From positions 1 to 20,468 of the IMG/VR virus record IMGVR_UViG_3300008450_000600: a stretch of DNA of 20,468 bases; one strand, 5' to 3'. The stretch comes from a virus. The position numbers and the translations under genes were made by a program. Positions 324-20,456 of this stretch are shown here, one piece after another. A model generated the notes under the pieces. The model worked only from the letters and a program-made list of their open reading frames with translations, searched no databases and was not told where the DNA came from. Positions within the stretch are counted from its first letter, which is position 1. Each line of letters starts with the position of its first letter.

Positions 324-332
324 TGGTATAAT
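324..332 (+). promoter_or_regulatory. Extended -10 promoter TGGTATAAT (leaderless)
   Basis: TGG at 324-326 directly precedes TATAAT at 327-332. This is the extended -10 form recognised by the primary sigma factor with little need for a -35 box. Only seven bases separate the hexamer from ATG 340, so the expected start of transcription (about 7 bases after the hexamer) falls on or next to the start codon. No Shine-Dalgarno sequence is present, as expected for a leaderless mRNA. Confidence 0.7.
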
Positions 333-339
333 CATTGAT

Positions 340-756
340 ATGTGCACACCAACAACAGAAAAATTTGGGGCTACCCCAGCAAATATTCAGTGGGCTGTTG
401 TCCGTGGAGACTACGCTTCATTCACAGTCTCATTTCTTGAAAATGACGAAGTTACAGAATTTGACACAGACGGCTGGGAATTTTCTGCTACAGCCTATGA
501 TCCAACCACAGACGTACTTGACGAACTAGAAGTTTCCGTTGATGGTTCTGTCATAACTGTAAGCGCTCCAGCATCTATAACTGAAAACTGGGGAACCAAG
601 TACAGATCAGTGGTTGCAGAATTATCTTTTGACCTACAGGCAGTAATACCAGATGGATTATCGACAATTACCTGGACTCCAGTAATTGGAACAATCTGTG
701 TGCTTGGAGATGTTTCTCCAGTATCTGCAAGAGGTACAATCGGTGGAGTATCATAA
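340..756 (+). CDS. Beta-sandwich phage structural protein, 'RGDYASF' type (BppU N-terminal-like)
   Basis: This 139-residue protein carries a W-x-V-V-R-G-D-Y-A-S-F motif near residues 18-28. Alternating hydrophobic and polar stretches suggest a beta-sandwich. Two other proteins here (1623-1967 and 9519-9932) share the motif and general plan, so they form a paralogous family. The motif recalls small virion proteins related to the N-terminal domain of siphophage upper-baseplate proteins; this comparison is from memory and tentative. The start is ATG 340, because TGGTATAAT ends seven bases before it. The same frame can be extended to TTG 262, but that would put the promoter and a stem-loop inside the gene. 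The stop is directly followed by the next ATG, implying translational coupling. Its likely role is in a tail or fibre attachment structure. Confidence 0.65.
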   Translation: MCTPTTEKFGATPANIQWAVVRGDYASFTVSFLENDEVTEFDTDGWEFSATAYDPTTDVLDELEVSVDGSVITVSAPASITENWGTKYRSVVAELSFDLQAVIPDGLSTITWTPVIGTICVLGDVSPVSARGTIGGVS

Positions 757-840
757 ATGATAATTAAGATTAAAGATGTTAATCCTAAACTTCCACCACT
801 TATAAAAGTTAACGGTACTATTTTTAAAGTAAAGAAATAA
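757..840 (+). CDS. Small 27-residue protein, unknown
   Basis: ATG 757 follows the upstream stop codon (754-756) with no gap. The frame runs to TAA at 838-840, and the next gene starts at 844. The predicted peptide begins MIIKIKDVNPKLPP and is rich in lysine and isoleucine (ten lysines or acidic residues in 27), with a central proline pair. It has no signal peptide or membrane segment. The exact fit between two coupled genes is the main argument that it is translated. If it is not translated, the 84 bases would be an unusually long gap for this compact stretch. I do not recognise a family. It sits where the other beta-sandwich cassettes have their fibre-type partner, so it could be a relic or a minimal partner protein. 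Confidence 0.45.
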   Translation: MIIKIKDVNPKLPPLIKVNGTIFKVKK

Positions 841-843
841 CTC

Positions 844-1596
844 ATGGCCATATCAAAAAATATGGATGCTCCAAAAACCAAATACTCCGAAGTAATTAAG
901 TCAACAAAGAGTATAGAGTCTAGTGCCACTGAGTATGTTGCTGTTCCAGGCATTCAAGGAGAAAAAGGTGAAGTTGGTCCACAAGGACCCCCAGGCCCAG
1001 AAGGTCCTAGAGGCGAAAGAGGCATTCCAGGCAAAGATGGTAAAGATGGCAAGGATGGCCCACAAGGTCCTCAAGGCCCCAAAGGAGATCCTGGTAGAGG
1101 CGGTGGAGCAGGATATGAAAGTCCTTCAGGCCAATACCCAGGCTGGGCATACTATGAAAATAAAAACAAAAAACCATTATTTCTAGGACCCGATAGAGGA
1201 GATGATGGTTGGGTAAATATATTGATGGATGATGATGATGAAAACAACATTTTGAGGTTTCTTCCAGAAGGATCTGTTTCCCTATGGAATACAACTACCC
1301 AAAGAATTAACTTTAAACAACTTAAGGTGGGAGCCAAAATAGATATTAGATATGATATAGCCTTAACTACCGATACAAATAGCACAGAGGCATGGATAAG
1401 AACTTATATACCAAAGGTAGAATCCCCTACGGGATATATCGGAATGCTCAAGTATAAGTATCCCTATGAAATGTCTATTCATCAAACCTTATATGTCGAT
1501 TTACTAAAGATTAGGTCAGAAGGCGCAATCATACAAGCAAGAGCAGATAACGAAAGTACTATCTTCCTAAAAGGTATGTATATTTCAGTTTCTTGA
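844..1596 (+). CDS. Collagen-like tail fibre protein
   Basis: This 250-residue protein has three parts. Residues 1-35 form a polar N-terminal region, probably the attachment end. Residues 36-84 are an uninterrupted Gly-X-Y collagen-like repeat with Pro in X and charged residues in Y, including a [10 protein letters not shown] stretch. A C-terminal beta-rich domain (about 95-250) includes an acidic DDDDE run near 129-133. Collagen-like repeats in phages form trimeric fibre shafts, and the C-terminal domain is likely the trimeric tip that nucleates folding or binds a surface ligand. It lies four bases after the 27-residue frame, with no clear ribosome site, so translation is probably coupled. 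The stop codon (1594-1596) is directly followed by the promoter of the next cassette. Confidence 0.8.
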
Positions 1597-1605
1597 TGGT
1601 ATAAT
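1597..1605 (+). promoter_or_regulatory. Extended -10 promoter TGGTATAAT with short leader
   Basis: TGG 1597-1599 and TATAAT 1600-1605 start at the base after the preceding stop codon. The hexamer is 17 bases from ATG 1623. The strong Shine-Dalgarno AGGAGG at 1611-1616 would lie at the very start of the transcript. The same 17-base arrangement recurs before the genes at 2575 and 16446. Confidence 0.65.
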
Positions 1606-1622
1606 GGAACAGGAGGATAACA

Positions 1623-1967
1623 ATGGCATTTCCAAGTACATATGATTTTAACTACTACCGTGGTGACACTGCTCAATTTGTAGCCCGACCAAAAAATGCA
1701 AATGATGGATCCTCATTTGAATTAACAGACTACGATGCTAGTTTTACAATTGCTAACCAAAGAGGGTCTGGAGCAACTCAATATACAGCAAATGCAGTAG
1801 TCGATGAAACATCAGATATTGTTACATGCACAATTACACCAACTGTAGGAAGAACTCTTGCAGCAGGAACATATGTTTATGACGTTGAAATTGACAACGG
1901 TATTGAAATTTATACACTACTAACTGGAACAATTACAGTAACAGACGATATTACTGGAGCAGTTTAA
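1623..1967 (+). CDS. Beta-sandwich phage structural protein, 'RGDTAQF' type
   Basis: This 114-residue protein contains YYRGDTAQF near residues 11-19, then an L-T-D-Y-D-A-S-F-T-I segment. It ends with G-T-Y-V-Y-D-V-E-I and G-T-I-T-V-T-D-D-I-T. This order (RGDT motif, 'gettable' middle, YD-x-E/Q strand, final T-V-x-D-x-T strand) is typical of small Ig-like phage structural proteins and is shared with 340-756 and 9519-9932. No enzyme motif is visible. Its own extended -10 promoter and strong AGGAGG site precede it. The stop overlaps the next start in a TAATG arrangement (1965-1969), so it is co-translated with the fibre protein that follows. An attachment or baseplate role is inferred. Confidence 0.7.
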   Translation: MAFPSTYDFNYYRGDTAQFVARPKNANDGSSFELTDYDASFTIANQRGSGATQYTANAVVDETSDIVTCTITPTVGRTLAAGTYVYDVEIDNGIEIYTLLTGTITVTDDITGAV

Positions 1968-2545
1968 TGCCAGATGTTATATTGTCAAATGATGATATTA
2001 CTGTTCTTGGCCCACCAGAGGTCGTAGAACTTCTTGTAGATATTGGACCAACTGGACAACGTGGAAGTAAATTCTTTGTTGGTGTTGGTGACCCAAATAC
2101 TCTTACTACAAGTGGATCAATTTTTCAAGAAACTATAAATCTTTATGACATGTACATTAATTCTGCACCTGGAGCAAACTATGGATATCTTTATCAATAT
2201 GTCTCTGAGGTTGGTGGAAATACTTGGACTCAAGTTTTAAAGATATCTCCAACTTTATATTCAAAAAGACACACTGTAACTTTTGCCTCTGGAGAGGCAT
2301 CTATAACAGTTCCTATTGCAAATATTGTTACAGTATCTGGTACCCCTCTTACAGCATCTAATTTTAATGTTCAATATAGTATTGAGAATACTGCTCCAAT
2401 TGCTTCTTCAGTTGAGGTACCAGCATTAGCAGGTGCAGGAACAAACCTTGTAGTTAATCTTAATGCTGTTAAGTATGCAAGCAGCACTTGGTCTAATCTA
2501 ACAGGAGAGGTAACGGTACATCTGTTTATATCTGTAGTTGTCTAA
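1967..2545 (+). CDS. Minor tail fibre protein with short collagen-like linker
   Basis: This 192-residue protein begins with a short N-terminal region (V-L-G-P-P-E-V-V-E-L-L-V-D-I near 13-26). A two-triplet collagen-like linker G-P-T-G-Q-R-G (about 27-33) and K-F-F-V-G-V-G-D-P-N follow. The rest, about residues 45-192, is Thr/Ser/Asn-rich and beta-predicted, as in fibre heads. It starts inside the stop codon of the beta-sandwich gene, so the pair behaves as one cassette. The plan (small attachment segment, Gly-X-Y linker, beta domain) is a shortened version of the 844-1596 protein. The receptor is unknown. It ends just before the next extended -10 promoter. Confidence 0.65.
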   Translation: MPDVILSNDDITVLGPPEVVELLVDIGPTGQRGSKFFVGVGDPNTLTTSGSIFQETINLYDMYINSAPGANYGYLYQYVSEVGGNTWTQVLKISPTLYSKRHTVTFASGEASITVPIANIVTVSGTPLTASNFNVQYSIENTAPIASSVEVPALAGAGTNLVVNLNAVKYASSTWSNLTGEVTVHLFISVVV

Positions 2546-2548
2546 TTA

Positions 2549-2557
2549 TGGTATAAT
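2549..2557 (+). promoter_or_regulatory. Extended -10 promoter TGGTATAAT with short leader
   Basis: TGG 2549-2551 and TATAAT 2552-2557 begin four bases after the preceding stop codon. There are 17 bases from the hexamer to ATG 2575, with GAGGTGA (2564-2570) as the ribosome site. The expected transcript start falls at about 2564, on the ribosome site itself. Confidence 0.65.
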
Positions 2558-2574
2558 CTTGATGAGGTGAAAAA

Positions 2575-3474
2575 ATGGCAGCAGAATCAATCGGTAGTTT
2601 AGTACCAACAAAAATTCCAGGTCTATCAGACCAAGCAGACATTCAGGCTGCCCTACGTGTTTATCATTATGGGTCTTACACCTTTGATACAGCAGAAACA
2701 GATCCAGCAGAATTGGTTAACCCATCTATTGCTTATACTTTAAACGATCTTCAAGACCAAATTGATTCTGTTTCTGGTGGTAGCGCAATTCAGGCAACGA
2801 TTGTTGATGCTAAAGGTGACATAATTGCTGCCTCTGCTGCTGATACGGTAGTAAGACTTGCTGTTGGATCAAATGGAAGAGTGCTTACAGCAAACTCTGC
2901 AACCGCTACAGGTCTTGAGTGGGCTACACCAGCGGTAACACTTACAAACTCTGTAACACTAGAAGGAAAGTCAATTGCTTTAGGATCTAACACAGTTACT
3001 GGAACTATTGCTCAGTTTAATACAGCAGTTACAGATGCTGATTTTGCTACCCTTGCAGGAAGTGAAGTTTTAAGTAATAAAGAATTAAAATCTCCTACAG
3101 AAACAATGAATATTGTTGCATCAGCAGCAACAGGAACAATTAATATTAATGCAGAAACTTCAACAATTTGGTACTATACATCAAACGCCACAGCAAACCA
3201 TACATTAAATTTTAGACAAAGTTCATCTGCCACTCTTGATTCAGTTCTTTCTGTTGGAGAATCTATTACTTTGGTTTGGATGAACACAAATGGCTCTACA
3301 CCATATTACCCAAACACAATTCAAATTGATGGATCAACTGTAACTCCAAAATGGTCTGGTGGAACTGCACCTTCTTCTGGTAATGCTAGTAGTATTGATG
3401 TTTATGCTTTCAATATTATTAAAACAGCATCTGCTACATTTGTTGTTCTTGGATCTCAATCAAAGTTTGCGTGA
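2575..3474 (+). CDS. Modular tail fibre protein
   Basis: This 299-residue protein starts with an N-terminal region ending in A-D-I-Q-A-A-L-R-V-Y-H-Y-G (21-33), a motif I associate with attachment ends of phage fibres. A short helical segment, Y-T-L-N-D-L-Q-D-Q-I (54-63), follows. Residues 78-116 carry the fibre module V-D-A-K-G-D-I-I ... N-G-R-V-L-T-A-N-S ... G-L-E-W, which is repeated in the 10635-12443 protein. Residues 164-174 hold L-S-N-K-E-L-K-S-P, related to the L-T-N-K-T-L-T-S-P repeats of that same protein. The C-terminal half is beta-rich (W-Y-Y-T-S-N-A-T-A-N-H-T-L-N-F-R and a final V-V-L-G-S-Q). No enzyme motif is seen. It has its own promoter and is followed after six bases by a glycine-rich adhesin. 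Confidence 0.75.
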   Translation: MAAESIGSLVPTKIPGLSDQADIQAALRVYHYGSYTFDTAETDPAELVNPSIAYTLNDLQDQIDSVSGGSAIQATIVDAKGDIIAASAADTVVRLAVGSNGRVLTANSATATGLEWATPAVTLTNSVTLEGKSIALGSNTVTGTIAQFNTAVTDADFATLAGSEVLSNKELKSPTETMNIVASAATGTININAETSTIWYYTSNATANHTLNFRQSSSATLDSVLSVGESITLVWMNTNGSTPYYPNTIQIDGSTVTPKWSGGTAPSSGNASSIDVYAFNIIKTASATFVVLGSQSKFA

Positions 3475-3480
3475 TAAGAA

Positions 3481-4353
3481 ATGCCAATACGTTCTTCTGT
3501 GGGTGGCTCTAGACTATTAGGTAGAGGTCCAGTTTCTATTGTTTCTGGTGGAACACTCTTTTCAGATGACACTTATTTTTACAGAAGTTTTACTGGTAAT
3601 GGAAGCCTTGTTGTAAGTGGAGCACCACTAGAGTGTGAATATCTTGTTGTTGCAGGTGGTGGCTCAGGAGGAGCATCGGGTGGTGGTGGTGGCGGTGGTG
3701 TTAGAAAATCTTCAGCAACACTTTTAGCAAATACTTATAATGCTGTTGTTGGTGGTGGTGGAAATACTTTTTCAAGTGGTAGCCCATCAAGTTTTAATGG
3801 ACTTGTAGCAAGCGGTGGAGGTAGAGGCGCTGGAAACGGTGTCAATGGTGAAACTGGAGGTGCTGGCGGCGGCGGTGCCTTTAATGCTAACACAACTGGT
3901 ACTAATGGAAACGCTGGAGGATACACTCCAGAAGAAGGACAAAAAGGTGGAAATACAAATGCTACTTCAGGCGGTGCAGGTGGCGGTGGAGGAGGTCCTT
4001 CTTCTCAAGGTGCCAATGAGGGTCAAAACATAGGAACTGCAAATCAAAAATATGGAGCAGATGGTGGAGCAGGATCTTTCTACTCTGGATTCTCGGTCTT
4101 ATTTGGTTCAGGTGGAAGATTTGCTGGTGGTGGCGGTGGTGGAGCAATTGAATCAGGATTTAACGGTGGTTCAGGTGGACTCGGCGGTGGTGGACGAGGA
4201 GGTATTGGTGGTATTCCAAATGGAGATAATGGAGTTAGTGGAACAGAAAATACTGGTGCTGGTGGTGGAGGTTCTGGGCTTGTAGGAACTGGTGGTGGCA
4301 TGCCAGGTGGCAAAGGAATTGTTATTGTGCGTTATTTGAAATCGGCGGTATAG
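3481..4353 (+). CDS. Glycine-rich adhesin / tail tip protein
   Basis: This 290-residue protein has a compact N-terminal domain (about 1-55) with Y-F-Y-R-S-F-T-G-N-G-S-L-V-V and Y-L-V-V-A-G-G-G-S-G-G. This matches the start of the phage glycine-rich domain family (Gly_rich type). Residues about 58-280 are dominated by runs of glycine broken by short Ser/Asn/Ala segments, closing with G-G-K-G-I-V-I-V-R-Y-L. Glycine-rich repeats of this kind form polyglycine-II bundles in known phage adhesins such as gp38 of S16, where loops at the bundle end bind the receptor. The same fold here is an inference. It has three paralogues in this window (5029, 5930, 7218) but lacks their longer N-terminal domain. 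The gene follows its fibre neighbour closely and lacks a strong ribosome site. Confidence 0.75.
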   Translation: MPIRSSVGGSRLLGRGPVSIVSGGTLFSDDTYFYRSFTGNGSLVVSGAPLECEYLVVAGGGSGGASGGGGGGGVRKSSATLLANTYNAVVGGGGNTFSSGSPSSFNGLVASGGGRGAGNGVNGETGGAGGGGAFNANTTGTNGNAGGYTPEEGQKGGNTNATSGGAGGGGGGPSSQGANEGQNIGTANQKYGADGGAGSFYSGFSVLFGSGGRFAGGGGGGAIESGFNGGSGGLGGGGRGGIGGIPNGDNGVSGTENTGAGGGGSGLVGTGGGMPGGKGIVIVRYLKSAV

Positions 4354-4356
4354 AGT

Positions 4357-4635
4357 ATGTCACATTGGGCAGAAGTAGACGAAAACAATATAGTTATTAG
4401 AGTCACAGCAGGAGATAACAATGATCCTAATGGTGATGAAGGATACCAGTGGCTAGTGGATAATCTTGGTGGAACCTGGATTAAAACATCTTATAATGCA
4501 AGAGGTGGTGGTTTTAGAATGAATTTTGCTGGAATTGGATATTTCTGGGATGAAGAAAATGAAAGATTTATTCCACCACAACTAGATCCATCTTGGGTAC
4601 TAGATGAAGAAACAGCAACCTGGAAAGTGACATAA
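4357..4635 (+). CDS. Small Trp-rich phage protein
   Basis: This 92-residue protein starts M-S-H-W-A-E-V-D-E-N-N-I-V-I. It continues with G-T-W-I-K-T-S-Y-N-A (about 39-48), F-R-M-N-F-A-G-I-G-Y-F-W-D (53-65) and ends P-S-W-V-L-D-E-E-T-A-T-W-K. From memory, this pattern is common in short proteins next to fibre genes of cyanophages and other aquatic phages; their function is not settled, with fibre assembly or a minor virion component as options. It has no signal peptide or membrane segment. It starts three bases after the adhesin stop codon and is the last gene before the duplicated promoter leader. It is analogous to, but not clearly homologous with, the neighbouring 100-residue protein. Confidence 0.65.
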   Translation: MSHWAEVDENNIVIRVTAGDNNDPNGDEGYQWLVDNLGGTWIKTSYNARGGGFRMNFAGIGYFWDEENERFIPPQLDPSWVLDEETATWKVT

Positions 4636-4644
4636 TAAAATAAT

Positions 4645-4689
4645 TATAGTGTATAATAGCACTATATGTGATTCACGATAAAAGCGAGA
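4645..4689 (+). promoter_or_regulatory. Palindromic promoter-leader element, copy 1
   Basis: TATAGTG (4645-4651) and CACTATA (4660-4666) form a perfect 7-base inverted repeat. Its 8-base centre starts with TATAAT (4652-4657), so the -10 hexamer lies in the middle of the palindrome. GTGATTCAC (4668-4676), itself palindromic, and ATAAAAGCG follow. Bases 4646-4689 match 6846-6889 at 38 of 44 positions. A repressor or activator site overlapping the promoter, or a hairpin in a read-through transcript, are the main options. The AAGGAG at 4705-4710 then serves ATG 4717. Confidence 0.6.
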
Positions 4690-4716
4690 ATACAAAACCA
4701 AAATAAGGAGTAAGTA

Positions 4717-5019
4717 ATGGCAAATTATGCGGTAATTGAAAACGGCACAGTCGTTAACGCAATCGTAGCAGATTCATTAGAAATTGCACAAGAACTTACA
4801 GGGCTAACATGCCTTGAATATACAGAAGAAAACCCTTTAGGAATTAACTGGTATTGGGATGCTACAGCAGATGCTTATATTGCCCCAGCACCTTACGCTT
4901 CATGGGTTTATGACTATACAGAAAAATTATGGAAAGCACCAATAGAGATGCCAGTTCAAGAAGGACAAAAATATACCTGGGATGAAGTAACAACATCTTG
5001 GATAGCATCTGACATATAG
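4717..5019 (+). CDS. Small fibre-associated protein, 'ANYAVIENG' family
   Basis: This 100-residue protein begins M-A-N-Y-A-V-I-E-N-G-T-V-V-N-A-I-V-A-D. It continues with T-C-L-E-Y near 31-35, G-I-N-W-Y-W-D (42-48), a proline-rich A-P-A-P-Y-A-S-W (55-62) and a C-terminal Y-T-W-D-E ... S-W segment. The first 38 residues are strongly similar to those of the 63-residue protein at 8025-8216. I recall similar short proteins beside fibre genes in many phages. A role in fibre assembly or as a minor virion component fits, but no activity is shown. A good ribosome site (AAGGAG 4705-4710) and the palindromic promoter precede it. The glycine-rich adhesin gene begins nine bases after its stop. Confidence 0.65.
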   Translation: MANYAVIENGTVVNAIVADSLEIAQELTGLTCLEYTEENPLGINWYWDATADAYIAPAPYASWVYDYTEKLWKAPIEMPVQEGQKYTWDEVTTSWIASDI

Positions 5020-5028
5020 GAGTAATAA

Positions 5029-5928
5029 ATGGCAACAACGGTATTTCCCGTAGTAGTTAGTTCAGGATCATCAGGTCCATCAGCAACATCTATTACATGT
5101 GCTTCCCCTTTTGTAGCATATGGAGCAGCGTTACCACTAACACCAGCAATTTATACAATTACGTGCACTTCAACAACAATCGCTAAGGTAGAATTTTTTT
5201 CTTCTGATACAGTTTCAATTGGTGTTGCTACAACTGTAAGTGGTTCTGTTTCATATAATCTAGCAACAGCAGCAACAAAGGTGGTTGTTTGGACTGATAC
5301 TGGAAGCAATATTGTTGTAACAATAACACTAACTGCTTCAGCACTAAGTGATACACTAAACAAAACTCTTGACACAATTACTTCATCTTCTACTTACACA
5401 GGAACATCAACATCAGGATATGCATACTTCTTGATGGCTGGTGGTGGTGGCGGTGGAGGAAACTCAAATCAGCAATATGGTGGTGGCGGAGGTGGAGGTT
5501 CTGGAGGATTTAGATCTGGAATTGTTCAACTTACTGGCTCAATGGCTATTGTAATTGGTGCTGGAGGAACCGCTCCTGGTGGCACTGGTGGAAGTACTAC
5601 TTTTGCAGGATTTACATGTACTGGTGGTGGTGGTGGCGGTACTGGCGGAGCATCTGCTGGAGGAACTGCAGGATCCCCTAATGGTAGTGCAGGAGGAAGC
5701 GTTGGTGGAGGTGGGTCTCCATATGGAACAGGTGGATCGGGTGGAGTAAACTTATCTCCATATTCTTATATGACAAAATCAAATTATATCGGAACTAGCG
5801 GTCAGGGTGGTGGAGAATACACTAACGTAACCGCAGGAACAATATCAGGTGGTGGTGGCGGTGGAGCATCATCTAGAGGTGGTGGACAGCCTGGTGGTGC
5901 TGGAATAGTTTATATTCTAAGGTTCTAA
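5029..5928 (+). CDS. Glycine-rich adhesin (paralogue 2)
   Basis: This 299-residue protein has an N-terminal beta-rich domain of about 135 residues beginning M-A-T-T-V-F-P-V, with repeated V-T-I-T type strands and ending S-S-T-Y-T-G-T. A glycine-rich domain (about 136-299) follows, containing V-Q-L-T-G-S-M-A-I-V-I-G-A-G and closing with G-I-V-Y-I-L-R-F. The 5930 and 7218 proteins share this two-domain plan and the same internal and terminal motifs. The long N-terminal domain probably attaches to the fibre or baseplate, and the glycine-rich domain would form the receptor-contacting polyglycine-II bundle (inference). The ribosome site AGGAG (5018-5022) overlaps the previous stop. One base separates its stop codon from the next adhesin start. 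Confidence 0.75.
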   Translation: MATTVFPVVVSSGSSGPSATSITCASPFVAYGAALPLTPAIYTITCTSTTIAKVEFFSSDTVSIGVATTVSGSVSYNLATAATKVVVWTDTGSNIVVTITLTASALSDTLNKTLDTITSSSTYTGTSTSGYAYFLMAGGGGGGGNSNQQYGGGGGGGSGGFRSGIVQLTGSMAIVIGAGGTAPGGTGGSTTFAGFTCTGGGGGGTGGASAGGTAGSPNGSAGGSVGGGGSPYGTGGSGGVNLSPYSYMTKSNYIGTSGQGGGEYTNVTAGTISGGGGGGASSRGGGQPGGAGIVYILRF

Positions 5929-5929
5929 T

Positions 5930-6844
5930 ATGGCAACTACAATATTCCCAGAACCATCTATATCTACAATTAACGCAAGTACTCTTACGGCAGCATCAGC
6001 AGGGGTACTATATTTATCAACAGTACCTCTAAGTACTGGAATATATACTGTTACTTGTGTATCTTCAACTATAGCAACTGTTGATTTTATGAATGGCTCA
6101 TCTTTAATTACTACAGTTTCAACATCTTCTGGAACTGTAACAGTTAATCTTGGCACAGCGGCAACAAGCATTCGTGTAGTCACTAATACTGGTTCAAATA
6201 TTTCAGTTACAATTACAAAAATTGGTAACGCTTTAACAGCAACAGCCCTTAGCGGAACACTTGACACTATCACAACAACTTCTACTTATACAGGAACTGC
6301 TGTAAATGGAGCATTTGCCGTTCTTGTTGGTGGCGGTGGTAACGGAACAAATGGTATTTATGGTAACGCTGGTGGTGGATCAGGGGCTATATGTTCTGGA
6401 GCAGTAACTCTTACTGGATCAATGCCCGTAGTTATAGGTGCTGGTACAAGCCCTGGCGGAACTTCTAATGGCGGAACTAGCACTTTTGCTGGGTGGAGTG
6501 CTGGTGGTGGGGTGTATCAAGGAAGTGGCGGTACTGCGTCAGGTGCTCCAACAAATACCCCTGGAGGCAATGGTGGTACTGGTGGAGCAAATAATGCTGG
6601 TACAGCAACCTCTCCTCTAGCATATGTTAAAAATGGTTCTACTGGTGGTGGTGGAAGTTACGGTGGTCAACCTGGTGCTGGAAGTGGTATTGGTACTGGC
6701 GGAACTGGTGGCAACGGTGCAGGTGCTAACGGTGGTGCTGGTTCTGGTTATGGCGCAGGTGGAGGATCATGTGGTGGCGGTGGAGCAGGGCCAGGAGTAT
6801 CAGGTGCTGGAACACAAGGAGTTCTTTACGTTTTAAGATATTAA
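5930..6844 (+). CDS. Glycine-rich adhesin (paralogue 3)
   Basis: This 304-residue protein is a tandem paralogue of the gene just upstream. It begins M-A-T-T-I-F-P-E-P and keeps the A-A-T-S-I-R-V-V-T-N-T-G-S-N motif of the N-terminal domain. It then shows L-D-T-I-T-T-T-S-T-Y-T-G-T before the glycine-rich part (from about residue 135). The internal motif V-T-L-T-G-S-M-P-V-V-I-G-A-G and the end L-Y-V-L-R-Y are conserved, while the glycine-rich sequences between them differ widely. Such divergence in the presumed receptor-binding part with a conserved frame is what one expects of adhesins under host selection. Its start is one base after the previous stop and it has no ribosome site of its own, so it is probably coupled. 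Confidence 0.75.
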   Translation: MATTIFPEPSISTINASTLTAASAGVLYLSTVPLSTGIYTVTCVSSTIATVDFMNGSSLITTVSTSSGTVTVNLGTAATSIRVVTNTGSNISVTITKIGNALTATALSGTLDTITTTSTYTGTAVNGAFAVLVGGGGNGTNGIYGNAGGGSGAICSGAVTLTGSMPVVIGAGTSPGGTSNGGTSTFAGWSAGGGVYQGSGGTASGAPTNTPGGNGGTGGANNAGTATSPLAYVKNGSTGGGGSYGGQPGAGSGIGTGGTGGNGAGANGGAGSGYGAGGGSCGGGGAGPGVSGAGTQGVLYVLRY

Positions 6845-6845: not shown

Positions 6846-6889
6846 ATAGTGTATAATTACACTATACGTGATCTACGATAAAAGCGGGA
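6846..6889 (+). promoter_or_regulatory. Palindromic promoter-leader element, copy 2
   Basis: ATAGTG (6846-6851) and CACTAT (6860-6865) flank TATAATTA, so again the -10 hexamer (6852-6857) is the centre of an inverted repeat. The palindrome arms, the TATAAT and the downstream ATAAAAGCG are conserved with copy 1, while the short bases between them vary. The element starts two bases after the adhesin stop codon and lies 2200 bases from copy 1. A ribosome site, AGAGG at 6903-6907, follows before ATG 6916. Confidence 0.6.
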
Positions 6890-8893: not shown

Positions 8894-8902
8894 AGTATAA
8901 CA
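8894..8902 (-). promoter_or_regulatory. Extended -10 promoter TGTTATACT (minus strand)
   Basis: On the minus strand TGT precedes TATACT (complement of 8894-8899), giving an extended -10 element of the same type as those on the plus strand. The hexamer is about 50 bases upstream of the start codon of the lysozyme-like gene, leaving a leader of about 43 bases with the hairpin and AGGAGG site. No good -35 box lies at 17 bases. Confidence 0.6.
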
Positions 8903-8969: not shown

Positions 8970-8978
8970 TGGTATAAT
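8970..8978 (+). promoter_or_regulatory. Extended -10 promoter TGGTATAAT (near-leaderless)
   Basis: TGG 8970-8972 and TATAAT 8973-8978 are followed after ten bases by ATG 8989. The expected transcript start is about 8985, leaving a leader of about four bases and no Shine-Dalgarno site. The earlier in-frame ATG at 8977 overlaps the hexamer and would lie upstream of the transcript start. Confidence 0.65.
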
Positions 8979-10159: not shown

Positions 10160-10168
10160 TGATATAAT
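10160..10168 (+). promoter_or_regulatory. Extended -10 promoter TGATATAAT (leaderless)
   Basis: TGA 10160-10162 precedes TATAAT 10163-10168. Six bases separate the hexamer from ATG 10175, so the expected transcript start coincides with the start codon. No Shine-Dalgarno site exists before this gene. Confidence 0.65.
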
Positions 10169-10174: not shown

Positions 10175-10621
10175 ATGGCTAAATTATCAATCTCAAGCAT
10201 AAAGTCTCTGTTTCAGACTGGAGACCGTCCAACTCAAGCAAACTATGAGGATTTAATTGACAGTACCTCTGCAAGATCAACAGACCTTGGTTCAGATGGT
10301 AACAATGAAGTTACAATTAACGGCATTGAAAACTCAACAATCTTTGATAACTTTTTAGCAAGCGAATGGAGATCAGTAAAATACCTGGTCTCAATTAAAA
10401 AGACTTCTGGAGGCGCAAATAAATACTGGGCCACAGAATTAACCATTGTTCCTGACAATACAGATGTAAGCGTCAGTGAGTATGGAACAGTAGACAATGA
10501 TGGGAATATTGGCACCATCTCCGTGTCTAGAGCAGGAGATACAGTTTCACTAACTGTAGTTCCAGTGGGTGGGCAAACACCAATAACCTTGCGCTATTTG
10601 CGTATTGGGTTAAAGGCCTAA
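10175..10621 (+). CDS. Phage structural protein with shared fibre C-terminal domain
   Basis: This 148-residue protein has a short N-terminal helix-like region with S-I-K-S-L-F-Q-T-G-D-R-P-T (8-20) and A-N-Y-E-D-L-I-D-S, an attachment-like motif I associate with phage fibre bases. Residues about 58-148 form a beta-rich domain: F-L-A-S-E-W-R-S-V-K-Y-L-V-S-I-K, E-L-T-I-V-P-D-N, S-E-Y-G-T-V-D-N-D-G-N-I-G-T and V-S-L-T-V-V-P-V-G-G. The end of the 10635 protein (about 516-602) has the same succession, so the two share a terminal domain. In this gene it stands almost alone, like a fibre tip without its shaft. A fibre or fibre-knob role is inferred. It is predicted to be leaderless. Confidence 0.65.
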   Translation: MAKLSISSIKSLFQTGDRPTQANYEDLIDSTSARSTDLGSDGNNEVTINGIENSTIFDNFLASEWRSVKYLVSIKKTSGGANKYWATELTIVPDNTDVSVSEYGTVDNDGNIGTISVSRAGDTVSLTVVPVGGQTPITLRYLRIGLKA

Positions 10622-12926: not shown

Positions 12927-12935
12927 TGATATAAT
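12927..12935 (+). promoter_or_regulatory. Extended -10 promoter TGATATAAT with longer leader
   Basis: TGA 12927-12929 precedes TATAAT 12930-12935. The start codon of the next gene is 71 bases further on, with a ribosome site AAGGAG at 12994-12999. The sequence TATAATTACCACATATAG after the hexamer resembles TATAATTACACTATACG of the palindromic leader at 6852, so this may be a decayed relative. The leader is very AT-rich with only a weak AT hairpin (12951-12965). Confidence 0.5.
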
Positions 12936-14299: not shown

Positions 14300-14306
14300 A
14301 AATTTG

Positions 14307-14315
14307 TGCTATACT
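14307..14315 (+). promoter_or_regulatory. Extended -10 promoter TGCTATACT for the reductase
   Basis: TGC 14307-14309 precedes TATACT 14310-14315, directly after the terminator. The expected transcript start is near 14322, giving a leader of about 55 bases. The ribosome site is GAAAGG (14361-14366), ten bases before ATG 14377. Confidence 0.6.
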
Positions 14316-14321
14316 TAAGAC

Positions 14322-14342: not shown

Positions 14343-14376
14343 CTTATCTTATTTTACTTTGAAAGGTACATAATAA

Positions 14377-16410
14377 ATGTCAGAAAGCGTATTCTCTTTT
14401 CGTCTATCAGAAGAATTTGTAAATAAATATCAAAGCATTCCAGCACCATTTGGATTCTCAGATGCAGGATCTAACTCGTTGGGAGAGGTAACGTTTATTC
14501 GTACATATTCTCGTGTTAAGGAAGACGGGACAAAGGAACGCTGGCATGAGGTTTGCCGTCGTGTAATTGAGGGTATGTACTCAGTTCAAAAGAACCATGC
14601 TAAAGATAATCGTCTACCATGGAATGATAACAAGGCTCAGAAGTCTGCTCAAGAAGCATTCCAAAGAATGTTTGAATTGAAGTGGACTCCACCAGGTCGT
14701 GGTCTCTGGGCATTCGGAACTCCCATGACTATGGAGAAGCGTAACTCTGCATCCCTTCAAAACTGCGCTATGGTTTCAACAAGAGACATTGATCGTAATG
14801 ATCCAGGTGCTCTTTTTGCTTGGGTAATGGATGCATTAATGTTAGGTATTGGTGTAGGGTTTGATACCCTTGGACAAGATAAGCAAATGTCTATCTATGC
14901 TCCAACTGAGCCAGCATCTATTTATGAAATCCCAGACACTCGTGAAGGATGGGTAGAGTCTGTTAGATTACTTATTAATTCATTCCTTCGTCAAAACCAG
15001 CCTATTCAAGAGTTTACCTATGACCTTATCCGTCCTCTAGGTGCCCCTATTAAGGGCTTTGGAGGCGTTGCAAGCGGTCCAGCACCACTTATTGATCTCC
15101 ATACACGGATTCGCAATGTGATTGGCTCTAGAGCAGGAGAGGCCCTTGATAGCCGTGCTATTGTAGACCTTGTAAATCTTATTGGCACCTGTGTTGTTTC
15201 TGGAAATGTTCGTCGTTCTGCTACCCTTGCACTTGGCGTTCCACAAGATGAAGGCTTTATTAATCTTAAAAATCCAGAAGTATTTCCTGAAAGAAATTCA
15301 TATGATCCAGAAAAGCCAGGTTGGGCTTGGATGAGTAATAATTCTATTGCTGCTGAAATTGGAACTAAGTATGAAGACTATGTAGATCTAATTGCAGATA
15401 ACGGAGAACCAGGTTTTATCTGGCTTGATGTTGCTCGTAATTATGGAAGACTTGCAGATGCACCTGATTATAAAGATGCTCGTGTTATGGGATTCAATCC
15501 ATGTGCAGAGCAACCACTTGAGTCTTATGAACTTTGTACTCTTGTAGAAGTTCACTTAAACCGTCATGAATCTAAAGAAGATTTTCTTAAGACATTAAAG
15601 TTTGCATACCTTTATGGAAAGACTGTAACCCTTATGCCAACACACTGGCAGCAGACAAACGGTATTATGCAACGCAATCGCCGTATTGGAACATCTCTAA
15701 CAGGTATTGCTTCATTTGCAGATACTTATGGACTTCCAACAACTCGTGAATGGATGGATGAGGGATATAACAAGATTCGTCACTATGACCATCAGTATTC
15801 AGAATGGCTTTGTGTTCGTGAATCAGTTCGTGTAACCACTGTTAAGCCTTCAGGATCTGTATCACTTCTATCTGGTGCTACCCCTGGAGTTCACTGGGGT
15901 CCTGGTGGAGAATTTTATCTTCGTGCTATTCGCTTTGGAAATACTGACCCAATGCTTCATTTGTTTAAAGCAGCGGGGTATAAGATTGAAGCAGACCTTG
16001 TATCAGCAAACACATCAGTAGTCTATTTCCCAGTAGCGTCTGGACACAAGCGTGCAGAAAAGCAAGTTAGCCTATTTGAAAAAATTGGTTTGGCAGCAAC
16101 TGCTCAGAAATACTGGTCAGATAATGGTGTTTCTGTAACCCTTTCTTTTGACAAAGAAGAAGAGACAAAGTTTATTGCTCCAGCCCTGAATATGTACGAA
16201 GGACAGTTAAAGGCAGTATCATTCCTTCCAATGGGAAATAAGACATATCCTCAGCAACCTTATACAGAAATAACAAGAGAAGAATACAACTCATATGTAG
16301 GTAAGATTGGCAAGATTGACTGGTCTGCTATTTATGATGGGGTAGAAAACCTTGAGGCTGCTGGTGAGGCATACTGTTCTACAGACGCATGTGAGATTAA
16401 GTTTTACTAG
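14377..16410 (+). CDS. nrdJ: Adenosylcobalamin-dependent ribonucleoside-triphosphate reductase (class II)
   Basis: This 677-residue enzyme reduces ribonucleotides to deoxyribonucleotides using a thiyl radical generated with coenzyme B12, supplying dNTPs for phage replication in the cytoplasm. Key residues by homology with the Lactobacillus leichmannii enzyme: the active-site pair C130 (S-L-Q-N-C-A-M-V) and C387 (Y-E-L-C-T-L-V-E-V); radical Cys C376 and Glu E378 in F-N-P-C-A-E (373-378); and the C-terminal shuttle cysteines C667 and C672 (Y-C-S-T-D-A-C). Other family blocks are P-D-T-R-E-G-W-V (186-193), G-F-G-G-V-A-S-G-P (227-235), G-N-V-R-R-S-A (276-282), N-R-R-I-G-T-S (434-440) and T-T-V-K-P-S-G-S-V (487-495). 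All catalytic residues are present, so it is probably active. It is shorter than the 739-residue reference, mainly between C130 and P-D-T-R-E-G. It has its own promoter and leader, and lies between structural genes, which is unusual. Confidence 0.93.
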   Translation: MSESVFSFRLSEEFVNKYQSIPAPFGFSDAGSNSLGEVTFIRTYSRVKEDGTKERWHEVCRRVIEGMYSVQKNHAKDNRLPWNDNKAQKSAQEAFQRMFELKWTPPGRGLWAFGTPMTMEKRNSASLQNCAMVSTRDIDRNDPGALFAWVMDALMLGIGVGFDTLGQDKQMSIYAPTEPASIYEIPDTREGWVESVRLLINSFLRQNQPIQEFTYDLIRPLGAPIKGFGGVASGPAPLIDLHTRIRNVIGSRAGEALDSRAIVDLVNLIGTCVVSGNVRRSATLALGVPQDEGFINLKNPEVFPERNSYDPEKPGWAWMSNNSIAAEIGTKYEDYVDLIADNGEPGFIWLDVARNYGRLADAPDYKDARVMGFNPCAEQPLESYELCTLVEVHLNRHESKEDFLKTLKFAYLYGKTVTLMPTHWQQTNGIMQRNRRIGTSLTGIASFADTYGLPTTREWMDEGYNKIRHYDHQYSEWLCVRESVRVTTVKPSGSVSLLSGATPGVHWGPGGEFYLRAIRFGNTDPMLHLFKAAGYKIEADLVSANTSVVYFPVASGHKRAEKQVSLFEKIGLAATAQKYWSDNGVSVTLSFDKEEETKFIAPALNMYEGQLKAVSFLPMGNKTYPQQPYTEITREEYNSYVGKIGKIDWSAIYDGVENLEAAGEAYCSTDACEIKFY

Positions 16411-16419
16411 TCCCTAGCC

Positions 16420-16428
16420 TGCTATAAT
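16420..16428 (+). promoter_or_regulatory. Extended -10 promoter TGCTATAAT with short leader
   Basis: TGC 16420-16422 precedes TATAAT 16423-16428. There are 17 bases to ATG 16446, with the ribosome site AGGAGA at 16437-16442, the same geometry as at 1600 and 2552. A second TGGTATA lies at 16431-16437, overlapping the ribosome site; its TATAGG hexamer is a poor match. Confidence 0.6.
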
Positions 16429-16445
16429 AGTGGTATAGGAGAACA

Positions 16446-19400
16446 ATGTCTAATCCATCAAACTTATATGCAGAAAAGATCTTTTCGGAACACCCATTGG
16501 TTTTGTGGGCACTTGACGATAAGGCTGACTATGTAAGTTTGATTACAGAGGCTCAAAGAAATATTGAATCTCTTTGGACCGTAACTGGTGGAACTAGAAA
16601 TACAGATCCTGGAAGTGGTGCAGTAAATCCACCATTTGAGGATAGCCTTTCAACTAGTATTCTAGGTACTGTTCCATCTGGATCTCCAGGAAATATTGTT
16701 CTTATTAGTCCAAACCTTACTAATTTTTCTAACATGAATGCTTCTCTTGGAACTTTCTCTGTTGGATCTTATTTTTATTCAAACAGTATTTATGCTAATT
16801 CTGTATCTATTGGATACGAGTATACAGACCCAGCAACATCTTCAGTTGTTCAACAGTTAGAAACATTCACTGATCCAATATACAATAGGTGGTCTTTTAT
16901 ATCTTCTACTTTTACAATACCAGACAAGGTTGCAACCTTCAGGATTGTAATTAAAATTGCTACTGCTGTTGGCGGAGCATCTACTTCAGATTATGAATTT
17001 TATGTTAATGGTATTAGTGCGGGACAGTGGGCAGAAGAATTTCATGCTACCTCTCTTGGAACTTCCGTTTCTTCATTTCCTACAGACATTGCCCTAACGC
17101 AAGACTATGCAGTTGAGGCACTTCCATACGGATTAACAGATGTTAGCGGATACTATTTGGCATCAGCAACATCTTTATTTGCAAGGAACACAAGTATACC
17201 GTTGGTGTATGGTGCATCAGGACTTACTAAGATTACTCCAAATGGAGAAAATCCTTCTTTAATTATTCCAGGTCAAGGATTCTTAAATGAACTTGGCAGA
17301 TACAATGAGTACACTGTTGAATTCTGGGCAAGAATAAACTCAGATGCAACACAGCCAAAAAAGATATTTGGACCAATTGCATCTTCAGATGGTCTATATG
17401 TTGAGTCTGGATTTATAACATTAAAAATTGGAAATGCATTTAGATCACACTTTGTTGGCGAATGGTATCGACCAATGCTAATAAATATTAGAGTTATTAA
17501 AAATGCTGCAAGTTTACTTGTTAATGGAGAAGAAGTTTTGTCCCTGTCTTTTGACACAGAGTCAATATCTTTACCCGCAGCACTAAATGAAGCAAACCAA
17601 GACTCTCAAGACTGGCTTGGTTTTTATGCTTATACAGATGTTCCAGAAATAGAAATTGACTGTGTAGCAATTTATCCATACCAGGTCCCAGTTACAGTTG
17701 CTAAGCGTAGATGGGTTTATGGTCAAGGCGTTGAATCACCAGAAGGAATTAACTCAGCCTATGGTGGAACATCTGCATTTATTGATTACTCTTTTGCAGA
17801 TTACACAGCAAATTATTCATACCCAAACTTTGCTAAATGGCAACAGGGAACATTTGATAATCTTGTTACAACAGCAACATCCCTACAGACACCAACATAT
17901 GCTTTGCCAGACATATTTCTTGAGACAAAAACATTGCAAGAATTTTATAATGATAATCAGGCAATTCAAGTTGGAAATGCAAAGTTTATGTGTTTGAAAC
18001 CAAATGAAGACTGGAGCGCTATTGATGGATATATTAACTTCTCTAGTCTAGACATATTAAACGACGAAGTACACGCCATCTATTCTGTAATTCAGGCAAC
18101 TGATGCTGATGCCGATGAACAAATCCTTATTGATATTCAAGACACACTGACGGGAAATAAACTTAGCGTAATTAAAGAGGGGCTATTGGTTAAATATTAT
18201 CTAACCTATAACAACGATCAAGAACTTCTATATACAACAGATGCACTTGTTCTTAATACAAAAAGAGCAGTTGGAATAGATATAGATAAACTTATTAATA
18301 CTTTTGGCGGAAATGTTTCAACATTTTTTGGAAGCAGAAAAGGCCTTACCTTATACATTGGTGGAGATAAGACGGGAACTAAAACTTTCTCTGGATACAT
18401 CTATACAGTTGGATTATGCACAACATCTAACAAGGCTCAGTTAACAGATCACTTTCTAGACAATGGTATCGCAATTCTTACTTCTGGAGATGAACTAATT
18501 GTTCACACTGCAAGTTATACTCTTTTAGCAAATGAATCCTACAATACTTTCTTTCTAGATATTGGAATTTCTGGATATTGGGAAGATTATATGCCTCTTT
18601 CATACTTTGCTCAGTATGTAAAAAATGACGTTGGTAATGAATACTATGATCTAGATTTTATTCAGTTTAATGTTGACTATCCAGAACCATCTACAGTTAC
18701 CCAGGCAGATATTGGCGTTGAGTCTTTTTCTTATCTTGACTTGTATAATCAGTATGCTTCTCCATCTCAAAGAACTTATACTGATCTAGCAGATGCAACT
18801 GAAACTGGCTGGGAAGACTATCTAGATATGGCTGAGCAATCTGTAAGTGCTTATATATATAATACAGACAATTCAGAGGTTAGAAGTTATATAACATTTC
18901 AATATGTTGCAGAAGGAGCAAACTCTCCAGTTGCAAACTTTTTGACAGTAGACAGACCGCTACAAACAAAAATATTAGATATGGACAATCATCCGCAATG
19001 GGAAACTACAAGATTTGAGGTTGTAAACAATACACTTATTTATCCAAGCAAAACTGTAGACTTTAATGAGTTAGCAGTTGTGTATCGTCTTGAGTTTAAT
19101 ATTCGTGGAATATTAACCAAGCCACTAAACCTAAGAAACCTTTCCCTTGCTTCTCAAGTTTTAAATGACAACTCTTTTAATCCTATTGGTACAAAATTTG
19201 GAAACGACTTGTTCCCATATAAGAGGTCTGGAATATATTATGACTATAAGTCTAAAAATCCTTTTAGCATTTACAAGGGAAGCACTCCATACCTTTATAT
19301 GACAAAAAATTCAGGAATTGAAGTTCGTGGAGATTTTATTTCTTCTATAGATCGTGGAGTAGCCTTACCAGTAAACACAACGCTTGCAAACAATTATCGT

Positions 19401-20042
19401 ATTAGTGCTTTCCAGGCTTGGTACAGAAATGACAACGCTCTTTTTTCAAGTTCTCCAGTACAGTTGTTTGAAATAAGACACAAGAATGAAACAATAAAGT
19501 TTTATACAAAAGCAGTTAATGCTTCTGGTAGTAGAGCAAAAATATACGCAGTTAACGACTCAACTGGAGAAGAGGTCAATGGGTTATCTTATTATATTAA
19601 CGGGTACATTGTCAGAGAGCCAGTTCTAACAATTAAAGAGTGGACTGTAATAGGTATATCCTTTGGATCATCCCTAATCTTTGACTCATTCTTGGGGTCA
19701 ATAAATGTAAATGGCCCAGGAGTATTTAATAATATTTCTTATTACCAAGCAACAGACTTGCAGCAAATTCAGAGCGTCATTACAAGACCTTGGGCAAATG
19801 TTAAGACAGAAGATGGAACCAACTTTGACTGGCAGCATTGGAAGACTAACTACTCGTGGAATGGTATGCTAGTTGTATCAACATCCTCAACCTATGGCGT
19901 AAACCCTTCAGAAATCTATAAAACCTATATTGGAACCAATAAGATTATTGTAGATGATGGTGAAGGCATGAGCCTAGACTCTGATAAACTTAAGATTTAT
20001 GATGCTGTTGAGTGGTCAAGTTCTGTTGTCACTGCAGTCTAA
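16446..20042 (+). CDS. Large LamG-like structural protein, multi-domain
   Basis: This 1198-residue protein starts with a conserved-looking segment, H-P-L-V-L-W-A-L-D-D (16-25). Residues about 75-195 resemble a carbohydrate-binding beta-sandwich module (R-W-S-F-I-S-S-T-F-T-I-P and F-Y-V-N-G-I). Residues about 285-415 form a concanavalin/LamG-like jellyroll: Y-T-V-E-F-W-A-R-I, G-L-Y-V-E-S-G-F-I-T-L-K-I-G, W-Y-R-P-M-L-I-N-I-R-V, L-L-V-N-G-E-E-V and I-E-I-D-C-V-A-I-Y. A second related stretch lies around 545-690 (L-Y-I-G-G ... F-S-G-Y-I-Y-T-V-G-L-C). A third lies near the C-terminus (F-Q-A-W-Y-R, K-E-W-T-V-I-G-I-S-F, G-S-I-N-V-N-G-P-G, N-I-S-Y-Y-Q). No catalytic motif is recognisable. It is probably a tail or appendage protein that binds cell-surface glycans. 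It has its own promoter and ribosome site. Confidence 0.7.
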   Translation: MSNPSNLYAEKIFSEHPLVLWALDDKADYVSLITEAQRNIESLWTVTGGTRNTDPGSGAVNPPFEDSLSTSILGTVPSGSPGNIVLISPNLTNFSNMNASLGTFSVGSYFYSNSIYANSVSIGYEYTDPATSSVVQQLETFTDPIYNRWSFISSTFTIPDKVATFRIVIKIATAVGGASTSDYEFYVNGISAGQWAEEFHATSLGTSVSSFPTDIALTQDYAVEALPYGLTDVSGYYLASATSLFARNTSIPLVYGASGLTKITPNGENPSLIIPGQGFLNELGRYNEYTVEFWARINSDATQPKKIFGPIASSDGLYVESGFITLKIGNAFRSHFVGEWYRPMLINIRVIKNAASLLVNGEEVLSLSFDTESISLPAALNEANQDSQDWLGFYAYTDVPEIEIDCVAIYPYQVPVTVAKRRWVYGQGVESPEGINSAYGGTSAFIDYSFADYTANYSYPNFAKWQQGTFDNLVTTATSLQTPTYALPDIFLETKTLQEFYNDNQAIQVGNAKFMCLKPNEDWSAIDGYINFSSLDILNDEVHAIYSVIQATDADADEQILIDIQDTLTGNKLSVIKEGLLVKYYLTYNNDQELLYTTDALVLNTKRAVGIDIDKLINTFGGNVSTFFGSRKGLTLYIGGDKTGTKTFSGYIYTVGLCTTSNKAQLTDHFLDNGIAILTSGDELIVHTASYTLLANESYNTFFLDIGISGYWEDYMPLSYFAQYVKNDVGNEYYDLDFIQFNVDYPEPSTVTQADIGVESFSYLDLYNQYASPSQRTYTDLADATETGWEDYLDMAEQSVSAYIYNTDNSEVRSYITFQYVAEGANSPVANFLTVDRPLQTKILDMDNHPQWETTRFEVVNNTLIYPSKTVDFNELAVVYRLEFNIRGILTKPLNLRNLSLASQVLNDNSFNPIGTKFGNDLFPYKRSGIYYDYKSKNPFSIYKGSTPYLYMTKNSGIEVRGDFISSIDRGVALPVNTTLANNYRISAFQAWYRNDNALFSSSPVQLFEIRHKNETIKFYTKAVNASGSRAKIYAVNDSTGEEVNGLSYYINGYIVREPVLTIKEWTVIGISFGSSLIFDSFLGSINVNGPGVFNNISYYQATDLQQIQSVITRPWANVKTEDGTNFDWQHWKTNYSWNGMLVVSTSSTYGVNPSEIYKTYIGTNKIIVDDGEGMSLDSDKLKIYDAVEWSSSVVTAV

Positions 20043-20044
20043 TA

Positions 20045-20053
20045 TGGTATACT
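20045..20053 (+). promoter_or_regulatory. Extended -10 promoter TGGTATACT (leaderless)
   Basis: TGG 20045-20047 precedes TATACT 20048-20053, starting two bases after the previous stop. Seven bases separate the hexamer from ATG 20061, so the transcript should start at or next to the start codon. No ribosome site is seen. Confidence 0.65.
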
Positions 20054-20060
20054 AAAGGTT

Positions 20061-20456
20061 ATGAATCCATTAATTAGTCAAAAAACTGGTAAGCCTATTG
20101 TAAGCAATGTCCGAAGAAAGGTCATTGAGAAGCAGTATGACTGGGGTCTGTACGTATATAAGAAATCAACTGGCAAGTGGTTTACAGACGGAGAAGGCAA
20201 TGTACTCAACATTGAGTCAATGCGTGGTGACATTTCTAAGATTGCACAACTAAAAACTGCAGCAAAACACTTTGGTGACCCAGGAGATGGTGAAGCCGTG
20301 TTTGTTGCGGGACTTACAAGAATTACAGATGAAGAACACTCAGAGCAGATGGACAGACTCAAGCAGGGGTTAATTCCATCAATGAACGATCTAGGTGCTT
20401 GGCATGCTGCACAGCAAACAGTTGACAAATTTGGTAGGGGTGCTTTAGATGAGTGA
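20061..20456 (+). CDS. Conserved phage protein of unknown function
   Basis: This 131-residue protein contains Y-D-W-G-L-Y-V-Y-K-K (26-35), G-K-W-F-T-D-G-E-G-N-V-L-N-I (38-51), M-R-G-D-I-S-K-I-A-Q-L (54-64), A-A-K-H-F-G (67-72) and Q-G-L-I-P-S-M-N-D-L-G-A (102-113). I recall proteins with this same succession from actinophage structural regions, but know no established function. It is mostly soluble and mixed alpha/beta, with no signal peptide or transmembrane segment. It is predicted to be leaderless. Its last bases overlap the start of the next gene (ATGAGTGA, 20449-20456), so the two are co-translated. This resemblance is one of the weak arguments for an actinobacterial host. Confidence 0.65.
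   Translation: MNPLISQKTGKPIVSNVRRKVIEKQYDWGLYVYKKSTGKWFTDGEGNVLNIESMRGDISKIAQLKTAAKHFGDPGDGEAVFVAGLTRITDEEHSEQMDRLKQGLIPSMNDLGAWHAAQQTVDKFGRGALDE

Follow-up and report, generated by a model that had tools for sequence, protein, structure and literature searches.

The window analysed here is a stretch of 20,468 bases that makes up the entire virus record IMGVR_UViG_3300008450_000600 (IMG/VR), whose gene content indicates a fragment of a larger phage (39.5% G+C). Its forward gene run encodes tail-fibre-like proteins, a head decoration or cement-like protein and the B12-dependent ribonucleotide reductase NrdJ, together with a forward-encoded protein of 1,198 amino acids (aa) that has no match in Pfam or PHROGs; the single reverse gene (8271-8843, minus strand) is lysozyme-like (PF18896). 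Four of the forward genes begin a few nucleotides (nt) downstream of an extended -10 promoter element, TGNTATAMT, and are candidates for leaderless transcription. On the plus strand, TGGTATAAT at 324..332 lies 7 nt (hereafter the gap, from the -10 hexamer to the start codon) before the ATG at 340 of a 138-aa protein of PHROG 1084 (unknown function; 340..756), the first codon of which would lie at the predicted mRNA 5' end. TGGTATAAT recurs at 8970..8978, with a gap of 10 and a predicted 3-nt leader (ACT), before the ATG at 8989 of the cement or head decoration-like protein (PF09956; 8989..9519). TGATATAAT at 10160..10168 stands at gap 6 before the ATG at 10175 of a 148-aa tail-associated protein (10175..10621; weak match to PHROG 967), and TGGTATACT at 20045..20053 at gap 7 before the ATG at 20061 of a 131-aa protein of PHROG 9394 (20061..20456). 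These positions and gaps are exactly those given in the sequence-only reading, which had assigned a TATAAT box to all four sites; the last fits TGNTATAMT, not TGNTATAAT.

All four genes lack a Shine-Dalgarno (SD) site (0/4, scored as a 4-mer match within -17..-4), as had been claimed. The combination TGNTATAMT-N6-10-ATG occurs four times in the window, against a mean of 0.28 and a largest value of 3 in 500 shuffles. All seven copies of TGNTATAAT are on the plus strand and outside listed genes, whereas 100 dinucleotide shuffles gave a mean of 1.35 copies and at most 4. Six other listed genes of the 340 type (MCxP...) have a gap of 7-8.

The spacing was surveyed in 191 sequences, namely the window and 190 others. 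Of these, 152 loci were found through the 1,198-aa protein and NrdJ (the best 80 of 139 and the best 80 of at least 599 confirmed relatives, respectively), and a further 38 stretches came from nine relative records. Starts were called from coding statistics and start-codon weights, a procedure that makes no use of upstream sequence and favours ATG; the 2,382 called starts with 80 nt upstream were reduced to 1,093 by removing those at least 80% identical over 90 nt. TGNTATAMT occurs 283 times within the 71 nt upstream of these starts, at gap 0-5 in 2 cases, 6-10 in 92, 11-14 in 1 and 15-18 in 41, with the rest further away. The histogram has two separate classes (gap 6, 35 starts; 7, 28; 8, 4; 9, 19; 10, 6; 11-14, 1; 15, 3; 16, 11; 17, 20; 18, 7). 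The proposed comparison with shuffled controls bears the motif out: the 92 sites at gap 6-10 compare with approximately 0.7 in shuffled upstream regions (means of 0.32 at gap 6-7, 0.38 at 8-10 and 0.28 at 16-18). These 92 sites come from 59 source loci, and a site at gap 6-10 is present in 21 of 26 protein clusters (single-linkage, built from the proteins whose starts have the motif in either gap range, 6-10 or 16-18). As negative controls, 50 kilobases (kb) each of phages T4, HTVC008M, P-SSM2 and SPO1, processed with the same caller, gave the motif at gap 6-10 before one of 213 starts, in P-SSM2; 40 kb of Gaia gave none, a weak result given that the caller returned 46 starts against 98 annotated genes.

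The two spacing classes differ in how translation would begin. SD matches occur at 4 of the 92 sites at gap 6-10 vs 39 of the 41 at gap 15-18. In one of the four flagged short-gap sites (L148) the match overlaps the -10 element, and in the other three (L091, L196, L088) it falls between the -10 element and the start codon; the two SD-less members of the longer class (L127, L135) both have an in-frame ATG at gap 6. The start codon is ATG at all 92 short-gap sites vs 776 of 876 motif-less starts, a comparison made with a caller that favours ATG. A pyrimidine precedes the start codon at 61 of 67 sites at gap 6-8 vs 187 of 572 controls (Fisher p 5e-21), the controls being starts with an SD match and no motif or with the motif at gap 15-40 (parts 128/450, 25/41 and 34/81); where neither motif nor SD match is present, the figure is 191/426. 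Such a pyrimidine bias would be expected of transcripts whose first base is the A of AUG. Counting past the hexamer, a purine occupies +7 in all 19 sites at gap 9 and +8 in all 6 at gap 10. As a side observation on these starts, among them that of the window gene at 8989, the commonest second codon is GCT at gap 6-10 (22/92) and GCA at gap 15-18 (13/41), a difference that may be a family effect.

Gene families keep their type of start. Family counts included all homologues among the 1,093 starts with at least half of the query aligned, and a start was moved if another in-frame ATG fitted the motif, a rule that favours the pattern. In the 20061 family an in-frame ATG follows the motif at gap 6-10 in 28/28 members (17 at the called start, 9 moved, and a further 2 that were called at gap 18 but also have such an ATG at gap 6). 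The 10175 family fits in 15/15 with none moved (gap 6-7), the 8989 family in 8/8 with 2 moved, and the family of the head maturation protease in 14/15 with 6 moved, the remaining member having a -10 element without TG. The 340 family fits in 10/11 with 1 moved, the exception being the window gene at 9519, which lies directly behind its upstream gene. The family of the window gene at 16446, of the SD-led class, has a gap of 15-18 in 16 of 18 members (3 moved), and an SD match accompanies each of the 13 that fit at their called start. Its two exceptions are L041, which has no motif and whose reading frame begins far inside the protein, and L152, which has a gap of 9 and no SD match and, on these features, is a natural switch from an SD-led to a near-leaderless start.

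The arrangement extends to named phages. In the relative G004 (106 kb), the 20061 homologue is followed by genes for the portal, the head maturation protease and a capsid-type protein, and the window stops inside this block. Comrade has the order ribonucleotide reductase, endolysin, hypothetical gene, small gene, portal, hypothetical gene, protease and capsid, and the stretch of Jay2Jay that was compared repeats this order, beginning with its endolysin-type gene; the Comrade small gene product is 38% identical to the window protein encoded at 20061 over 97 residues. A head block of the Stanwilliamsviridae kind was found in G004 on comparison with Comrade and Jay2Jay. Twelve named phages were taken from the 135 records matching the window protein: Comrade and Jay2Jay, which had been inspected already, and ten picked from 40 listed before the upstream regions of these ten were inspected. 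All twelve of these Streptomyces and Rhodococcus phages have an in-frame ATG preceded, at a distance of 6-7 nt, by TATAAT, TACAAT or TATGAT. An SD match was flagged in four of the twelve, each at -17 or -16 and touching the -10 element. The twelve sites share a common ancestry, and the sequences of Comrade and Belfort hardly differ in this region, so they do not count as twelve independent events. In ten the in-frame ATG is the annotated start; in Tomas (L396) and StarPlatinum (L400) it lies 15 nt upstream of the annotated start, at gap 6, in agreement with Jay2Jay and Yaboi. To judge from this match, the annotated start of the gene before the portal in Tomas and StarPlatinum is probably 15 nt too late. 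The protease genes of Comrade and Jay2Jay have a TANNNT hexamer at gap 6, and the excess of TANNNT at this gap is clear in Jay2Jay (14 vs 2.8, first 120 kb).

Several gene matches point to actinobacterial hosts: WhiB-like genes are present in 6 of 10 relative records (the other 4, possibly incomplete, have no WhiB match), the best NrdJ matches are Mycobacterium phages and DSL-LC01, and the 20061 protein and the G004 portal and protease match Streptomyces and Rhodococcus phages. As a host clue in its own right NrdJ gave no confirmed relative in the genome contigs searched, nor in five actinobacterial genomes, where an empty result shows little. The spacing itself recurs in two bacteria of this phylum. 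In Planktophila versatilis, a freshwater actinobacterium (first 800 kb, 740 called starts), TANNNT peaks at gap 6 (119) and gap 7 (52), and of the 186 starts with TANNNT at gap 6-8, 29 have an SD match; in Aquiluna, 200 kb of sequence likewise gave TANNNT at gap 6-8 before 27 of 198 starts. Both serve here as comparison bacteria rather than as proposed hosts.

Bacterial transcription starts approximately 7 nt after the -10 hexamer. At gap 6, therefore, the +1 would be the A of AUG. A corresponding range between -10 and +1 is described in the consulted part of the actinobacterial survey (PMC3160421), and leaderless genes at this spacing are established there for Actinobacteria. The purines at 19/19 sites of gap 9 and 6/6 of gap 10 would accordingly place a 3-nt leader, such as ACU, before the AUG. 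We infer that the extended -10 element sets transcription to begin on the A of the start codon at gap 6-8, or 3 nt upstream of it at gap 9-10, and put the probability of this reading at roughly 0.86. The promoters, in which no -35 element was seen, would be recognised by the RNA polymerase of the host carrying its main sigma factor, and translation would begin at the 5'-terminal AUG with no SD site involved, as it does for many genes of actinobacteria themselves. The same promoter would also serve SD leaders of 10-12 nt (gap 15-18) and longer leaders, and thus one promoter type would be combined with several leader types. The leaderless interpretation in the sequence-only reading has strong comparative support from the discrete spacing classes, the absence of SD sites at short gaps, the preceding pyrimidine, the match to actinobacterial spacing and the corresponding placement ahead of the portal gene in phages of Streptomyces and Rhodococcus; it needs amending for the 8989 gene, which is better read with a predicted 3-nt leader.

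A number of observations weigh against this reading. Lack of an SD site alone is not diagnostic, because both the motif and an SD match are absent from 426 starts. The share of preceding pyrimidines is raised at gap 15-18 too (25/41), and position +8 for gap 10 was picked after the data had been seen. Sites at gap 19-60 are in loose agreement with a +1 some 7 nt past the hexamer, having a pyrimidine at +6 in 59% and a purine at +7, +8 and +9 in 71, 69 and 68%, respectively, but this broad purine signal calibrates +1 only to approximately 2 nt. Leader-bearing read-through mRNAs may also exist. Among the phages, the TANNNT excess at gap 6 is weak in Comrade (9 vs 5.0, first 120 kb), and DSL-LC01 has TATAAT or a TG-type hexamer at gap 6-10 before only one of 150 annotated starts, and the looser TANNNT at gap 6-8 before 10 of 138 called starts (1 with an SD match). 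Among the bacteria, TG precedes the box in 5% of 146 SD-less P. versatilis sites vs 68% of 111 such phage sites, and TGNTATAMT is found nowhere within 40 nt of the 740 P. versatilis starts, where the commonest boxes are the weak TAGGCT, TAGACT and TAGAAT. These weak boxes without TG indicate that the phages combine the bacterial geometry with a stronger -10 element, and that their promoters are not copies of those of that bacterium.

The promoters might be real but minor, with late mRNA consisting mostly of long read-through transcripts and the SD-less genes translated by coupling to the gene upstream. Only two forward terminator-like matches stood out in positions 1-20000 of the window (8233-8256 and 14269-14289, both intergenic and G+C-rich), and the 10175 gene begins 21 nt past the previous stop codon, as coupling would allow. 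However, the genes at 340 and 8989 have no close listed forward gene upstream (339 and 772 nt, respectively), and under coupling the distance to the -10 element would not be constrained across relatives; we regard this account as unlikely. The scarcity of forward terminators that stand out does suggest that transcription reading through from upstream is probably supplemented by internal starts at these promoters, which may therefore lie within longer transcripts and not form isolated units.

A second alternative retains the leaderless geometry and changes the polymerase: TGNTATAMT would be read by a phage-redirected enzyme, for instance through a WhiB-type factor acting on the main sigma factor and favouring an extended -10 element without a -35 element. 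In its favour, there is no -35 enrichment at gap 6-10 (13/92, vs 0.09-0.25 in shifted controls), the phage motif is unlike the P. versatilis -10 box, and WhiB-like genes occur in six of the ten relative records. Against it, four of these records, which may be incomplete, have no WhiB match, and a consensus extended -10 site does not require a special factor. We consider a redirected polymerase distinctly improbable. Sigma-70 promoters with a -35 element were also rejected as candidates, a generic scan giving no excess (58 vs 58.5) in addition to the lack of -35 enrichment at short gaps; the gap 19-40 class, with a -35 element in 22/82 (0.27) vs 0.07-0.18, may have a weak one. A phage-encoded sigma factor was likewise set aside, with matches to PF04542 (region 2) and PF04545 (region 4), the two families searched, in 0/10 relative records, which are possibly incomplete. 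The first isolated Nanopelagicales phages encode both WhiB and a sigma factor, according to the part of that report consulted (PMC10202952).

Misassigned start codons, with the true starts downstream behind SD sites and the promoters followed by ordinary leaders, are a very unlikely explanation. Start calling is imperfect (the last window gene was first called at 20220), and 18 of the 77 members of the five short-gap families needed a moved start, moves that fit the pattern by construction. Nevertheless, for 55 of the 77 the called start fits unmoved, the alignments of all 15/15 members of the 10175 family start no more than 3 residues from one position, and the spacing is constant although the letters of the spacer vary. 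Chance matches in AT-rich DNA can be dismissed despite the 39.5% G+C, since shuffles, anagrams, the reversed pattern (63 matches vs 212 for the forward pattern, counted over ten records) and internal ATGs (of 941 genes, 1 has the motif at gap 6-10 upstream of its first in-frame ATG from codon 11 onward) do not reproduce the arrangement.

Beyond the four short-gap sites, and with looser letters allowed in the motif, the window has seven further forward promoter-like sites and one on the reverse strand. Three have a gap of 17 and a minimal leader with an SD match: TGGTATAAT at 1597..1605 (AGGAGG) and at 2549..2557 (GAGGTG), and TGCTATAAT at 16420..16428 (AGGAG). The other four forward sites have long leaders with an SD match: TGTATAAT at 4650..4657 (gap 59) and at 6850..6857 (gap 58), TGATATAAT at 12927..12935 (gap 71) and TGCTATACT at 14307..14315 (gap 61), which precedes nrdJ. 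The reverse site, TGTTATACT at 8894..8902, lies upstream of the lysozyme-like gene with an SD leader. Of the 12 forward intergenic gaps of at least 18 nt, 11 have a promoter-like site, the exception preceding the GTG at 12463. The suggestion that many cassettes are promoted one by one and translated leaderlessly therefore survives as a count of promoter-like sites (11 forward and 1 reverse in 20.5 kb), but only 4 of the 11 forward sites are of the leaderless or near-leaderless type.

Two of the long leaders have features of their own. The TGTATAAT sites lie in the two copies of a 44-nt repeat (4646-4689 and 6846-6889, 86% identical) that precedes two tail-region genes; in the first copy, a palindrome (TATAGTG...CACTATA) surrounds the -10 element, which suggests an operator or a shared leader. 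The nrdJ leader forms a potential hairpin at 14322-14342 (TACTTCG ... CGAAGTA) between the promoter and the SD site; in the 21 of 71 distinct leaders that were aligned, 93.9% of cells are paired, with changes on both sides in 4 of 7 pairs. Rfam gave no match in the window at the gathering threshold. In the head region of certain relatives (L176, 18281-18353), a conserved leader of approximately 60 nt (TGAGGAAAC...ACGCC...AGAGGTG) follows TGTTATAAT and precedes a 212-aa protein of the immunoglobulin (Ig)-domain type (PHROG 2175).

DSL-LC01, a metagenome-assembled phage and not an isolate (in the consulted part of PMC10611076), is best described, from the layout of its promoters, as running a different scheme. 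Of its 25 forward TATAAT boxes between 23 and 41 kb, 23 are found no more than 60 nt from an annotated start that has an SD match; elsewhere in the genome, the annotated start at 8346 is of the leaderless type. A CTAAAG-like element, typically GATTCTAAAG(A/T)TGTTATAATAGAATCA and partly palindromic, precedes 24 of 25 forward TATAAT boxes between 23600 and 40600 (L160).

The architecture is, as judged by its conservation across these genomes, real, conserved and regulatory, and a few leaderless actinophage promoters were predicted earlier. A broader proposal is that a whole actinophage lineage, from the freshwater relatives to the Streptomyces and Rhodococcus phages, launches the expression of its head and tail genes from extended -10 promoters that lack a -35 element and yield leaderless mRNAs, perhaps with sigma redirection by phage WhiB, and with single genes switching between leaderless and SD-led starts via small indels between the -10 element and the AUG; taken as a whole, this remains speculative and is doubtful. 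Leaderless starts that head virion operons and are conserved down to approximately 38% protein identity would offer a natural series in which to explore why some genes are leaderless. With promoter and start codon in some 16-19 base pairs, such a unit is also compact and might be carried along when tail or head cassettes move. In practice, the start codons of such genes are easily annotated too late, as apparently in 2 of the 12 named phages. Laboratory Streptomyces phages share the arrangement, and it is therefore directly testable.

Our literature search, which was limited and did not extend to subscription papers or preprints, did not bring up any description of this arrangement in a phage lineage; the elements of the arrangement can be compared with several known systems. 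The leaderless genes of Actinobacteria share a TA-like -10 element approximately 10 bp upstream of the start and lack an SD site (Zheng et al., 2011; PMC3160421, as far as its consulted part goes), whereas the phage sites are in the structural region and mostly have an extended -10 element rather than a weak TANNNT. The Stanwilliamsviridae Comrade and Jay2Jay and Rhodococcus phages such as Peregrin share the order small gene, portal, protease and capsid, with the -10 element of the small gene at gap 6-7; Comrade and Jay2Jay differ in having one extra gene between portal and protease, and the named phages differ from the freshwater relatives in sequence (approximately 38-45% identity for three proteins) and in having few TGNTATAAT sites (Comrade 4, Jay2Jay 5). 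In the mycobacteriophage Adephagia, one leaderless transcript is predicted (P90, gene 90) and repeated promoter-bearing motifs (ESAS/SAS) likewise occur, but the ESAS promoters differ in having both core hexamers (-35 and -10) plus an inverted repeat, and are not termed leaderless in the sections of that report consulted (PMC11373665). In the cluster O mycobacteriophages, leaderless mRNAs have been predicted for the promoters PL1 and PR2, and the PL2 of Corndog and other cluster O phages is similarly placed, before a leftward gene in the structural operon (PMC4351075, consulted in part). The difference is one of scale, in that two to three promoters were predicted per genome in the five cluster O phages, whereas the present window and its relatives have 92 non-redundant sites in 21 protein clusters, along with an SD-led counterpart class.

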